A DNA stretch of 64,000 nt, taken from contig NZ_LFBV01000010.1 of the NCBI RefSeq assembly GCF_001905345.1, forward strand, positions 348,224 to 412,223. Reading direction: 5' to 3'. Under the pieces are notes generated by a model. It did not search any database. It was given only the letters and a program-made list of their open reading frames with translations, and had not been told where the DNA came from. The translations under genes and the position numbers were made by a program. This DNA comes from Streptomyces uncialis (GTDB lineage: Bacteria > Actinomycetota > Actinomycetes > Streptomycetales > Streptomycetaceae). Positions 17,245 through 39,103 of this stretch are shown in pieces; the first letter of the stretch is position 1; every line of letters starts with the position of its first letter.

Positions 17245-17633
17245 ACGGAAGGGGGTGGGCGGGAATCTCTGCCCGCAGACTCCGACGCCCCCACTACAGC
17301 CACTGAACGCCCGTACCGAGCGCGTTGGAGCGAGGACGGAGAATCCCGACCGGCCCCGACCCGAAGAACAAACAGAACGCGCCCCAAAGGGGCGCGAGGA
17401 ACTGCGCGAAGACGAGGACAGACCCGCACCCGACGAACAGACCCGAAGGGGCAGCACCCAGGGGCGCGAGGAACTGCGCAAAACCACCGACCGACGGCAC
17501 AGGAACAAGTGCGCCCAGCACAGGAAACCCAGGGGCGCGAGGAACTGCGCAAAACCCACGAGCGACCGCACAGGAACAAGCGCGTCCCGCCGGACAGACC
17601 TACGAAGCGCAAGCGAAGGCGACCCGCGAGGGA
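17245..17633 (-). repeat. Dispersed intergenic repeat, long copy abutting degV
   Basis: It has the same ordered blocks as 2592-2860: GGGCGGGAATCTCTGCCCGC near 17255, GAGCGCGTTGGAGCGAGGAC near 17318, inverted cores at about 17392, 17460 and 17533 (three tandem copies instead of one), then GGCGACCCGCG touching the degV stop. With 17094-17244 this fills the comEA-degV gap; no gene is supported. Confidence 0.88.
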
Positions 17634-35194: not shown

Positions 35195-36508
35195 TCAGCC
35201 CCGGATGTGCCCGTCGCCCGTGACGATGTACTTGGTGCTGGTGAGCTCGGGGAGGCCCATGGGGCCCCGGGCGTGCAGCTTCTGGGTGGAGATACCGATC
35301 TCGGCGCCGAAGCCGAACTGTCCGCCGTCGGTGAAGCGGGTCGACGCGTTGACGGCGACCGTCGTGGAGTCGACCAGCTGGGTGAAGCGGCGGGCCGCCT
35401 GCTGCGAACCGGTGACGATGGCCTCGGTGTGGCCGGAGGACCACAGCCGGATGTGCTCGACGGCCTTGTCGAGGGAGTCCACGACGGCGGCGGCGATGTC
35501 GTACGAGAGGTACTCGGTGTCCCAGTCCTCGGCGGTGGCCTCCACCACGGTCGCCTTGCTGCCCTCGGCGTACGCCTGGACGCGGGGGTCGGCGTGGACG
35601 GTGACCCCGGCCTCGGCGAGCGCTTCGAGGGCGCGCGGCAGGAAGGCGTCGGCGATGTCCGCGTGGACGAGGAGCGTCTCGGCGGCGTTGCAGACGCTGG
35701 GGCGCTGCGCCTTGGAGTTGATGAGGATGTCGACGGCCATGTCGAGGTCGGCCTGCGCGTCGACGTAGACATGGCAGTTGCCGGTGCCGGTCTCGATGAC
35801 CGGGACGGTGGACTCCTCCACGACCGTACGGATCAGGGAGGCGCCGCCGCGCGGGATGAGCACGTCGACCAGGCCGCGGGCGCGCATCAGCTCCCGGACC
35901 GACTCACGGCTCTCGCCGGGGACGAGCTGGATGGCGTCGGCGGGCAGTCCGGCGCCGCCGACGGCGTCCCGCAGCACCCGGACGAGTGCGCTGTTCGACT
36001 CGTACGCGGAGGACGAGCCGCGCAGCAGGACCGCGTTGCCGGACTTGAGGCAGAGCGCTGCGGCGTCGACGGTGACGTTGGGCCGGGCCTCGTAGATGAT
36101 CCCGACGACGCCGAGGGGGACCCGGACCTGCCGCAGGTCGATGCCGTTGGGCAGGGTGGAGCCGCGGACGACCTCACCGACGGGGTCGGGCAGCGCGACG
36201 ACGTCCCGTACGTCGGAGGCGATGGCGCGGACCCGCTCCGGGGTCAGGGTGAGCCGGTCGACGATGGCCTCGCTGGTGCCCGCCTCGCGTGCCTTGGCGA
36301 TGTCCCGGGCGTTGGCCTCGACGATCTCGCGGGCCCGTACCTCCAGGGCGTCGGCGATCGCCAGCAGCGCGTCGTCCTTGGTGGCCCTGGGCAGCGGCGC
36401 GATGTCGGCGGCGGCGGCGCGGGCACGGTAGGCGGCGCGGGCGACCTCGGACATGTTGTCGTACGGCGAGGGCGCGGAGAGCGGGGGATGCGGCGGCAGC
36501 GACGTCAT
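35195..36508 (-). CDS. proA: Gamma-glutamyl phosphate reductase
   Basis: A 437-residue aldehyde dehydrogenase-superfamily enzyme making glutamate semialdehyde from gamma-glutamyl phosphate with NADPH in proline synthesis. Motifs: [40 protein letters not shown], the catalytic Cys in [15 protein letters not shown], and the C-terminal [20 protein letters not shown]. Start: ATG at 36508 ([11 protein letters not shown]) or internal ATG at 36454 ([11 protein letters not shown]); neither has a strong ribosome-binding site. proB lies upstream on the same strand but is separated by a small gene and a 0.5 kb tandem repeat. Confidence 0.95.
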
Positions 36509-36643
36509 GACGGCAGGGTAATGCGCCGCCGCGCGCCCGTCGGCGGTTGTCCCATCCCCCGAGACAGGCGTCCGGAGGATGGAACGGCGCGGGTCGCCGG
36601 TGGTCCCGGGCGGCCCGCCGCGCACCCCGCGCCCGGCGGCGGC

Positions 36644-37111
36644 TCAGTACGGGTGGACCCCGACGGGGGTCGCCGGAGCCGGGCCGTAGCCCGCCGCGAC
36701 GCGCTGGTGGTACGTCTCGCGGTCGATCACCTCAAGGCCGACGATCTCCCACGGCGGCAGCTTCGCGGTCTGCCGGTGCTCGCCCCACAGCCGCAGCGCG
36801 ACGGCGGCGGCGTCGTGCAGGTCACGTGCCTCCTCCCAGTACCGGATCTCCGCGTGGTCACGCGCGTACCGGCTGGTCAGCAGGAAGGGGTGGTCGTGGG
36901 CGAGCTGCTCCAGCCCCCGTCTCACCTCCGCGAGCGGCGCCTCGGCGCCGGAGACGCTGAGCGTCACGTGCCACAGCCGGGCCACCGGCCCCGGGCCCTC
37001 CCCGGCTGTTCCGCCCGCCAGGTTCGTCACCGCGCGCTCCTCCCCCACCGACTGGAGGGTGTGGGAGGCACGGGCGCCACGTGTTGCCGCCCCTTGGCGC
37101 ACTCGTCTCAC
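36644..37111 (-). CDS. Conserved hypothetical protein between proB and proA
   Basis: A 155-residue protein. The N-terminus is basic (VRRVRQGAATRGARA), the core reads RLWHVTLSVSGAEAPLAEVR, then LLTSRYARDHAEIRYWEEA, VALRLWGEHRQTAKLPPWEI and VIDRETYHQRVAAGYG. I see no catalytic motif, membrane segment or signal peptide; the core looks like an alpha/beta ACT- or ferredoxin-like fold, which is a guess. The GTG at 37111 is chosen because GGAGG sits five bases before it. Conserved position beside proA in Streptomyces as far as I recall. Confidence 0.75.
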   Translation of the reverse strand: MRRVRQGAATRGARASHTLQSVGEERAVTNLAGGTAGEGPGPVARLWHVTLSVSGAEAPLAEVRRGLEQLAHDHPFLLTSRYARDHAEIRYWEEARDLHDAAAVALRLWGEHRQTAKLPPWEIVGLEVIDRETYHQRVAAGYGPAPATPVGVHPY

Positions 37112-37194
37112 GACGACCTCCTTCACGCAATGGTCATGCCGCTGGTCCCTGCAACAAAGTTGACAGCCGATCGACTCCGATGGGGCACTTTTAC

Positions 37195-37740
37195 GGAACG
37201 TCCACCTGGTAGGACGTTCGGATGGTGCGGTAAGTGACACCTGGGCCGGGGGTCCGGGGGTCGCCCCCCGGGTGGACGCAGCACGGAACGTCCACCTGGT
37301 AGGACGTTCGGATGGTGCGGTAAGTGACACCCCGGCCGGGGGTCCGGGGGTCGCCCCCCGGTGGACGCAGCACGGAACGTCCACCTGGCAGGACGTTCGG
37401 ATCGTGCGGTAAGTGACACCTGGGCCGGGGGTCCGGGGGTCGCCCCCCGGTGGACGCAGCACGGAACGTCCACCTGGCAGGACGTTCGGATCGTGCGGTA
37501 AGTGACACCTGGGCCGGGGGTCCGGGGGCCGCCCCCCGGACAGACACCGCACGGAACGTCCGCCTGACAGGCCGCGCCCCGGCCAGGATCTCGCGGACCA
37601 ACCCCCGGACGGACACCGCAGGGAGCGTCCAGCTGGCAGGACGTTCGAAGGGTGGGGCGAGTCGCGCGGGCCGGTCCAGGTTCCGGGGGCGTTCCCGGAA
37701 CGGCACCGCGCGACTCGCCCCACCCGGTAGGACGCGCGGA
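37195..37740 (-). repeat. Tandem array of 89-90 bp units with two hairpins per unit
   Basis: Four near-identical units start at 37195, 37285, 37374 and 37463 (90, 89, 89 and 90 bp), then decayed units from 37553 and about 37621. Each unit begins with GAACGTCC, eight spacer bases, GGACGTTC (perfect 8-8-8 inverted repeat), then GATGGTGCGGTAAGTGACAC (or GATCGTG), then a GC hairpin GTCCGGGGG-TCG-CCCCCCGG. The 89/90 alternation breaks any reading frame. It fills the proB-to-small-gene gap (37112-37831) with no gene. It is not CRISPR: there are no unique spacers. Confidence 0.95.
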
Positions 37741-37831
37741 TCGTGCCGTTGGTCACACGTCGGTCCGGGCCTCTTCGGTCACCGGTACCGGCACTGGCGT
37801 TCGGGATGTCCGCCGGACGGGGACCCCTGTC

Positions 37832-39103
37832 TCACGGAGCGAGCAGGACCAGATCGTCGCGGTGGACGACCTCCCGCTCGTACGCGGGCCCGAGGTCCCG
37901 GGCGAGGTCCCGGGTGGAGCGGCCGAGCAGCTGGGGCAGCTCCTTCGCGTCGAAGTTGACGAGGCCGCGGGCGACCGCCCGTCCCGCGGTGTCACGGAGT
38001 TCGACGGGGTCACCCGCCGTGAACTCGCCCTCGACCGCGGCGATCCCGGCGGGCAGCAGCGACTTGCGGCCCTCGACGACCGCCCGTACGGCGCCGTCGT
38101 CCAGGGTGAGGGCACCGCGCGGGGTCGACGCGTGCTGGAGCCACAGGAGCCGGTCGGCGGAGCGGCGGCCGGTGGCGTGGAAGAACGTCCCGGTGTCCCG
38201 TCCGGCGAGGGCGTCCGCCGCGTGGACGGCGGAGGTCAGCACGACGGGAATCCCGGCGGCGGCGGCGATCCGGGCCGCCTCGACCTTGGTGACCATGCCG
38301 CCGGTCCCGACCCCGGCGCGGCCGGTGCTGCCGATCTCCACCCCGTCGAGGTCGGCGGGCCCGCGGATCTCGGCGAGCCGGGAGGTGCCGGGGCGGCTCG
38401 GGTCACCGTCGTACAGACCGTCGATGTCGGAGAGGAGGACGAGCAGGTCGGCGCGGACCAGATGGGCGACCAGGGCCGCCAGCCGGTCGTTGTCGCCGAA
38501 GCGGATCTCGTCGGTGGCGACGGTGTCGTTCTCGTTGACGACGGGCAGCGCCCCCATCGCGAGGAGCTTGTCGAGGGTGCGCGACGCGTTGCGGTGATGG
38601 GCGCGGCGGCTGGTGTCGTCGGTGGTGAGGAGGATCTGGCCGACGCGGATGCCGTACCGGGCGAACGACGCGGTGTACCGGGCCATGAGCAGCCCCTGGC
38701 CGACGCTGGCGGCGGCCTGCTGCCGGGCGAGGTCCTTGGGGCGGCGGCGCAGCCCGAGCGGGGCGAGTCCGGCCGCGATCGCGCCGGAGGACACCAGGAC
38801 GAGTTCTCTCGCCCCGCCGTCGCGGGTCTTGGCGAGGACGTCCACGAGGGCGTCCACCCGGTCCGCGTCGAGTCCGCCCGCCGCGGTGGTGAGCGAGGAC
38901 GACCCGATCTTGACGACGATCCGGTGCGCCTGCCCGACCCCCCGCCGGATGTCCGCGTCCCGCCGGGGGTCCGCGTCCCGCCGGGCGTCCGTACCCTCCC
39001 GGGCGTCCGTGCCCTGACCGGAATCCGTGCCCTCCCGGGTGCCCGTACCGTCCCGGCCGCCCGCGTCCCGCTCCGTTCCCGGCACCCGCCTTGCCCCTGA
39101 CAC
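37832..39103 (-). CDS. proB: Glutamate 5-kinase with a repeat-built N-terminal extension
   Basis: A 423-residue enzyme phosphorylating glutamate for proline synthesis. The amino-acid kinase domain begins HRIVVKIGSSSLTTAAGGLD (about residue 55), with LVLVSSGAIAAGLAPLGLRR, PVVNENDTVATDEIRFGDND and TGGMVTKVEAARIA; a PUA domain ends the protein (about 330-415). The first 50 or so residues are an unusual Arg/Asp/Thr/Gly string made by six in-frame 18-base repeats. No later in-frame start precedes the kinase domain, so the extension is probably translated. The GTG at 39103 has GGGAGG six bases upstream. proA is downstream across a tandem array and one small gene. Confidence 0.93.
   Translation of the reverse strand: MSGARRVPGTERDAGGRDGTGTREGTDSGQGTDAREGTDARRDADPRRDADIRRGVGQAHRIVVKIGSSSLTTAAGGLDADRVDALVDVLAKTRDGGARELVLVSSGAIAAGLAPLGLRRRPKDLARQQAAASVGQGLLMARYTASFARYGIRVGQILLTTDDTSRRAHHRNASRTLDKLLAMGALPVVNENDTVATDEIRFGDNDRLAALVAHLVRADLLVLLSDIDGLYDGDPSRPGTSRLAEIRGPADLDGVEIGSTGRAGVGTGGMVTKVEAARIAAAAGIPVVLTSAVHAADALAGRDTGTFFHATGRRSADRLLWLQHASTPRGALTLDDGAVRAVVEGRKSLLPAGIAAVEGEFTAGDPVELRDTAGRAVARGLVNFDAKELPQLLGRSTRDLARDLGPAYEREVVHRDDLVLLAP
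38952..39059. repeat. Six in-frame 18-bp repeats inside proB
   Basis: Consecutive 18-base units at 38952, 38970, 38988, 39006, 39024 and 39042, such as TCCGCGTCCCGCCGGGGG, encode hexads like ARRDAD, PRRDAD and AREGTD in the ProB N-terminus. Confidence 0.85.

Follow-up and report, generated by a model that had tools for sequence, protein, structure and literature searches.

The tandem array on the 3' side of proB, between proB and a small gene, probably arose by insertion of a mobile hairpin (E) that duplicated its target, followed by later expansion, a reading to which we give a probability of about 0.78. It lies in a window of 64,000 nucleotides, the whole stretch of DNA that was analyzed, from genome G000. 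The E sequence family is present at many unrelated loci, often with direct repeats of local DNA, and with regular junctions, and E-free relatives carry a single copy of the repeated local sequence (H). We infer that E moves, or has moved.

The array combines a local and a dispersed sequence

Tandem Repeats Finder placed the array at 37193-37571, with a period of 89, 4.2 copies, 94% matches and a score of 649. Direct reading gave four good units at 37193-37282 (90 bp), 37283-37371 (89 bp), 37372-37460 (89 bp) and 37461-37550 (90 bp), followed by a decayed H5 and E5 (37551-37619) and a partial H6 from 37620. Every one of these units joins a local part, H (about 51 bp), to a dispersed part, E (about 39 bp). 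On the plus strand, the order is TTTT followed by H1-E1-H2-E2-H3-E3-H4-E4-H5-E5-H6, of which H1 to E4 are well kept while H5, E5 and H6 are decayed. The features are as follows.

37189-37192, plus strand: TTTT target (TTN type) directly before the first H copy; same position after TTTT in G049 and G001
37193-37243, plus strand: H1, local, with GAACGTCC-N8-GGACGTTC, by direct reading
37244-37282, plus strand: E1, hairpin of 39 nt, GGCC-GGGGGTCCGGGGGTCGCCCCCCGGG-TGGACGCAGC
37283-37333, plus strand: H2
37334-37371, plus strand: E2 (38 nt)
37372-37422, plus strand: H3
37423-37460, plus strand: E3 (38 nt)
37461-37511, plus strand: H4
37512-37550, plus strand: E4 (39 nt), with one core mismatch and the tail CACCGC in place of CGCAGC
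37551-37580, plus strand: H5, decayed
37581-37619, plus strand: E5, decayed, assigned by its position and its GGCC and CACCGC ends
37620-37652, plus strand: H6, last partial copy, right edge approximate (37622-37646 match with 2 mismatches)
37650-37725, no strand assigned: long inverted repeat with 31-nt arms and 14 nt between them, not part of E, on the proB side of the array

These results bear out the preliminary description of this DNA, which reported four near-identical units of 89-90 bp with two decayed ones and a perfect GAACGTCC-N8-GGACGTTC inverted repeat; the latter is present in all four good units, within H. When up to three mismatches were allowed, GGAACGTCCACCTGGCAGGACGTTC had five matches in the 64-kb window, all inside the array, against 0.00 expected. 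As had also been argued, the alternation of 89 and 90 bp excludes one continuous reading frame. Protein coding is ruled out by these steps, and the open frames of the minus strand are those expected of GC-rich DNA. The strong GC hairpin described for each unit does occur once per good unit, as E, but it is no more stable than shuffles matched in composition: z values were +0.95 and -0.47 for E alone, and -0.85 and -1.22 for a single array unit. The stability of the E hairpin is not itself unusual at this base composition. Folded as one RNA strand, the whole array region was more stable than 100 of 100 shuffles (z -7.7). The inverted repeat at 37650-37725 (z -9.9 as RNA) lies about 106 nt past the proB stop and is a candidate proB 3' end structure.

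The window holds another GC-rich palindrome, GCGCAGTTCCCCGCGCCCCT, in nine copies at up to two mismatches (0 expected). It too is found in tandem, at a spacing of about 70 nt, at 1-200, 2441-2755 and 17388-17550 of the window.

We give almost no credence to an assembly artefact. The genome is a draft (8.88 Mb, 16 contigs), but the array sits inside an 871-kb contig and homologous arrangements are present in other genomes. Point changes and a one-base difference in length separate the units, which are therefore not copies of a single read. The possibility of an artefact, which had been raised at the outset, is answered by these observations.

E is a dispersed sequence family

A search for the unit elsewhere in this genome and in relatives, as first proposed with the preliminary description, separates its two parts: H is local to proB, and the E core (at most one mismatch) occurs in 145 of 199 genomes of the genus, G000 included, at 0-22 copies each. 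A backward-read control pattern had 6 matches over all 199 genomes. The consensus from 22 representative loci reads C-[GT]-GCC-GGGGGTCCGGGGGTYGYCCCCCGG-NNNN-CRCAG[CT], with little information further upstream. Beyond the four array copies (0-1 mismatch), G000 carries the core once more at 1 mismatch and twice at 2 mismatches. Copies elsewhere adjoin dnaJ, tldD, ABC-transporter genes and tRNA-Lys. The closing base pair of the hairpin covaries: among 195 copies, which are related sequences and not independent events, it is C-G in 159, T-A in 28 and another pair in 8 (T-G in 5).

An exact-pattern scan of GTDB genomes gave at least 118 stretches. Among the 80 listed, 54 are from Streptomyces and the rest mostly from other actinobacteria; several of the non-Streptomyces matches have other tails and may be other elements. 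Carriage by phages or plasmids was considered and rejected: the same scan of viral contigs gave 0 matches, and BLAST against plasmids and phages gave no match, a weak result given its low-complexity filter. Searches of an open-access library found no description of E, and the strings GGGGGTCCGGGGG, CCCCCGGACCCCC and GGGGGUCCGGGGG were absent from its papers. E has the look of a very small mobile element of a kind not described so far.

Several E-like sequences are recorded here as separate observations. Within the apparent N-terminal coding sequence of gmk (guanylate kinase) in G000 lies an E-like stretch with 2 mismatches and a GCTGCA end (L069, G000:C13:113706-113726); copies of GGGGGTACGGGGGTCGTCCCC occur in several other genomes of the genus, possibly as an old E absorbed into the protein. 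In L367 (G191:C37:39800-42800), two E copies in opposite orientation flank an ABC ATPase gene, not a transposase, and the upstream copy is within the open frame, ahead of the conserved N-terminus of the ATPase. E-like hairpins follow one another head-to-tail every 35 nt, with no H between them, in L126 (a Streptosporangiaceae MAG) and L105 (Actinomadura rudentiformis). A different repeat is seen in L168 (Herbidospora mongoliensis) and L191, where a similar hairpin core is followed by AGCCCCGCGAAGGTGGTC-like sequence, in several copies kilobases apart.

Direct repeats of local DNA often flank E

At other loci, E-bearing arrays contain the same E and a different H, which is whatever local sequence adjoins. 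H consists of the last codons of tldD-like (L015, L024), ABC permease (L010, L018), ectD-like (L004) or ABC ATPase (L013) genes, and in L005, L006, L008, L009 and L012 of the region before an enoyl-CoA-hydratase-like gene. Arrays of 2-7 units were seen in 12 of the 29 loci L004-L032, and single copies of E also show the H-E-H arrangement. As in VNTRs or minisatellites, the number of units (69-104 bp) differs between genomes, whereas the unit here is a dispersed element plus local DNA.

To quantify these repeats, the 200 bp on either side of the E core were compared by local alignment. In a first set, which favours arrays because one array can contribute several copies and because loci retrieved through their likeness to the window array are included, 116 of 195 E copies scored above the 99th percentile (15) of 576 same-locus control positions. 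The fairer figure is 52 of 113, for the loci long enough to be analyzed among 118 of the exact-scan stretches, which were not chosen by array similarity. A further 48 places, at least six of which repeat earlier loci (L229, L231, L232, L235, L338, L339), gave repeats in 27 (20 of 30 chosen automatically and 7 of 18 hand-picked), all above the highest of 147 controls. Several E loci are common to many species, so that copies are not independent events.

Against the insertion reading, a flanking repeat was not detectable in 79 of 195, 61 of 113 and 21 of 48 copies (40-56% by set). The CRCAG tail is still present in 31 of the 61 repeat-less exact-scan loci, which may be old insertions. A larger autonomous element ending in E was also considered and, on the matches read in L101, L168 and L191, rejected. 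When the rest of the fetched locus was searched for the 79 repeat-less copies, 11 rows had some distant match (L101, L132, L136, L153, L168 twice, L187, L191 three times, and L203). In L101, the DNA that follows E recurs in diverged form about 2.9 kb downstream, within another gene; the matches of L168 and L191 were judged to be another repeat.

Junctions are regular and empty sites carry one H

The end of E that faces the second H mostly reads CRCAG[CT], and TTN usually precedes the first H, mostly as CTTC or GTTC (59 junctions listed). Among 37 target-locus clusters, T occupies -3 in 29 and -2 in 29; TT across the two positions is found in 24, compared with a TT background of 1.9%. TT is still found in 23 of 33 clusters without four doubtful ones: L222 and L236 duplicate the tldD and dnaJ clusters, and in L105 and L187 E is itself the repeated sequence. 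The other junction is variable, and in single units H spans 30-130 nt from the target cut to GGCC. GGC or GGCC is shared at the copy edges in L094, L014, L011 and L187 (where E lies beside E), and the G067 copies share GCC, so that this microhomology is read in four or five loci.

A difficulty for the insertion reading is that, at many loci, the two copies cease to match at the upstream stop codon or no more than a few bases from it, and a linker of 9-63 nt (97 nt in the tRNA locus L149) precedes E and is absent from the second copy. This linker would reflect decay of the unselected part of the first copy with homogenization of the rest, because the two copies within a locus are more alike than copies between species: 0.96 versus 0.88-0.90 for dnaJ, 0.94 versus 0.82-0.86 for tldD (with 1 of 11 rows, L180, shifted) and 0.97 versus 0.74-0.77 for the permease. 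Left out of this comparison were the ABC ATPase loci, which are out of register, and the enoyl-CoA-hydratase-like loci, where some distal copies are mispaired. Repeated insertion at the same site would also fit the linker.

Empty sites were found at proB, at tldD/tldE and at ABC genes. In G007, the proB site holds, in proB sense, one GCCGAAAACGGGG...GGACGTTCCGC followed by AAAACCGCC, while the filled site of G067 has a 55-nt block, 37 nt of E, the identical block again and then AAAATCGCC. G001 is arranged as G067 but with 57 nt, and G049 has two E. At tldD/tldE, the L024 query matches G000 in two pieces that overlap there by 38 bp; G000 has one H and L024 several. At the ABC genes, a single junction between genes is present in G000, and it is free of E. 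The filled loci set against G000 at tldD/tldE and the ABC genes were L024, L074 and L022. Thus, E-free relatives carry one H. These target genes overlap, and after the duplication the upstream one is still complete at its end and the downstream one at its start. In tRNA-Lys(CTT), the target is cut immediately after the anticodon, and E is followed by a copy of the 3' half of the tRNA (L109, L149, L178 and L225, and L076 by sequence only). ARAGORN found an intact tRNA in L109, L149, L178 and L225, with an odd second tRNA in L225, and none in L076, whose contig starts inside the tRNA.

These sites bear on an explanation without mobility, in which replication slippage, provoked by a stable hairpin at a gene end, duplicates the hairpin and its neighbour in tandem, each locus on its own. 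Hairpins promote slippage, arrays of 2-7 units occur, and copy number is clearly plastic. However, slippage cannot supply E, and in relatives that lack E there is no second H either. One and the same 39-nt sequence, with its CRCAGC end, also recurs at about 33 unrelated target loci (the 37 clusters less the four doubtful ones), and we consider this explanation very unlikely.

The array and the proB-proA neighbourhood

Three genes surround the array.

37832-38980, minus strand: proB, glutamate 5-kinase (Pfam AA_kinase and PUA); the ORF continues to 39229
36644-37111, minus strand: small conserved gene between proB and proA, no Pfam match
35195-36625, minus strand: proA ORF, Aldedh family (Pfam)

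The location of the array had suggested that it might uncouple a proBA-linked region. In 131 of 131 spacers, G000 included, proB is followed by a start that matches this small gene (81 with one pattern and 50 with a looser one), and a proA-like start is visible past the small gene in sequences that reach that far (L035, L039, L040, L054, L056 and L057). By this comparison of spacers, the genus usually has an intervening gene, which the array did not bring about, and the idea of uncoupling finds no support in that form. The G000 spacer is the longest of the 131, with 717 nt; the median is 171 nt for the 81, and the 50 measure 81-200 nt.

On the minus strand, 37189-37192 together with H1 contain a motif conserved in the genus, GGACGTTCCGYAAAA (37189-37203). 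Exactly one GGACGTTCCGYAAAA-like match precedes the small gene in 79 of 129 other proB loci. By pattern, it is found in 78 of the 81 spacers and in 4 of the other 50, which show a changed form in the examples seen. In an alignment of 31 sequences, only the 3' half, GGACGTTCCGYAAAA, is well conserved; a conserved hairpin upstream of the small gene was rejected, as its 5' arm is not conserved in these sequences.

The array multiplies the GGACGTTCCG part of this widespread motif, and the folded region is unusually stable, two points in favour of a selected regulatory array, in which repeated operators or a structured RNA tune proB and the downstream genes and E was recruited for that function. 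Yet the AAAA part of the motif is not multiplied, and E is present in only 5 of 131 proB spacers (G000, G001, G049, G067 and G097), one of which, G049, has a separate array of period 104 at the same proB site. At unrelated genes, E arrays multiply the local DNA, whatever it may be. A search of 36600-38000 gave neither a sigma-70-type promoter nor an intrinsic-terminator pattern, and no Rfam family reached its gathering score, be it in the window array or in any of 8 E loci. Four Rfam matches in the region, all far below gathering score and all on the inverted repeat at 37650-37725, were rejected as known RNAs. The multi-operator array and the processed structured RNA of the preliminary description both lose ground with these results. 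A selected regulatory array is in our view highly improbable, and the proline-regulation idea is unsupported. The added hairpins may still affect proB-proA transcripts.

E differs from known small repeats

Short palindromic repeats in bacteria are usually explained by REP/RAYT systems or by MITEs. A REP/BIME type of origin would have the E palindrome cut by a RAYT-like or IS200/IS605-like Y1 transposase, with arrays formed by rolling-circle copying of the hairpin and a captured neighbour. The overall architecture is the same: as in the REPs and BIMEs treated in PMC2817692, E is a short GC-rich intergenic palindrome with a conserved flank, found in tandem with unrelated segments between palindromes, with gene 3' ends caught between them (in that RAYT-defining paper, those of rayt genes) and with compensatory stem changes. 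The complementary strand of E even has a conserved 5' head, GCTGYG, before the GC-rich palindrome.

PMC2817692 defines a REP by a GT(A/G)G head directly before the palindrome, whereas E has CGGCC before and CRCAGC after its hairpin (22 loci) and no GT(A/G)G. REPs usually exceed 100 copies per genome, more than the 0-22 of E in 199 genomes, but copy number alone is no exclusion, for Table 1 of PMC2817692 lists some REPs that are as rare. Instead of the alternating orientation of REPs and BIMEs, all four good copies in the window array lie head-to-tail in one orientation. Single E copies are flanked by long direct repeats, at a TTN target, and no partner transposase was found.

A reverse transcriptase and a Y1 transposase were examined as partners of E; neither is significantly associated with it among the 199 genomes, a point that also weighs against our own reading of E. 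RVT_1 was present in 62 of 145 E-bearing versus 16 of 54 E-free genomes (p 0.10) and Y1_Tnp in 52 of 145 versus 14 of 54 (p 0.24). Neither was found in G000. Among E-rich genomes, G060 (13 copies) lacks both and G098 (20 copies) lacks RVT_1. We know of no REP or IS200 movement described with target duplications of 30-130 bp. By the tests made, on head, orientation and transposase, E is not a REP/BIME of the RAYT type, and we regard such an origin as unlikely. Of the first proposals, the bacterial interspersed mosaic element nevertheless came closest: a mobile-looking palindrome with captured local sequence in tandem is what we find, only not of the RAYT type.

MITEs are tiny, non-coding, dispersed and present or absent between relatives, as is E; the target duplications of MITEs measure 2-14 bp. 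The ends of E, CGGCC... and ...CRCAGC, are not inverted copies of each other as the terminal inverted repeats of MITEs would be, and its duplications are not short and fixed but variable, at 30-130 bp.

SINE-like retroposons that move by target-primed reverse transcription (TPRT) join one end precisely and the other by microhomology, at a T-rich target that they duplicate over long and variable stretches. E may resemble them in its CRCAGC end, which is precise, and in the GGC/GGCC overlap at the other end in four or five readable loci; its target duplications are likewise long and variable, and its target is T-rich. It differs in being only about 39 nt long and in the non-significant association with RVT_1 given above, and an RNA intermediate is hypothetical. 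In a SINE-like reading, a structured RNA of about 39 nt would be reverse-transcribed at a nick after TTN, and the cDNA end would find GGCC on the overhanging strand. With its wide stagger, this reaction would copy a target stretch of 30-130 bp, and an insertion where gene ends overlap would thus harm neither gene. That E is a bacterial SINE-like retroposon is a doubtful idea; we know of none described in bacteria, and if true it would add a mobile-element class that, to our knowledge, has no described bacterial counterpart.

A proposed model for insertion of E and expansion of the array

We propose that the 39-nt E entered at TTTT|ACGGAACG, in the spacer that separates proB from the next gene, and that about 50 bp of target, H with its conserved local motif, would have been duplicated to give H-E-H. 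An enzyme-made break after TTN would be joined precisely to the CRCAGC end of E. The GGCC end would join the opposite strand 30-130 bp away at GGC/GGCC microhomology, and gap filling would double the target. The junction pattern is that of target-primed copying; a DNA route may also account for it. The array would then have grown and been homogenized by recombination or slippage between copies to H-E-H-E-H-E-H-E, followed by the decayed H-E-H, and later changes in copy number would be ordinary recombination. Insertions at gene ends are probably nearly neutral, because the duplicated target restores both flanking genes.

What makes the window interesting is E, a tiny hairpin that looks mobile, comes with long target duplications and has apparently not been described before. 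It is smaller than the elements invoked for such repeats and is without the tested hallmarks of REP/RAYT or MITE, and its insertions record the target, a precise end, a long duplication and empty sites. A duplication that keeps both neighbouring genes whole would explain how E can settle at the ends of housekeeping genes (dnaJ, tldD, proB, a tRNA). The duplication also seeds tandem arrays that multiply local DNA. E offers a concrete handle for finding the enzyme, and it is a source of variable loci in antibiotic-producing bacteria.
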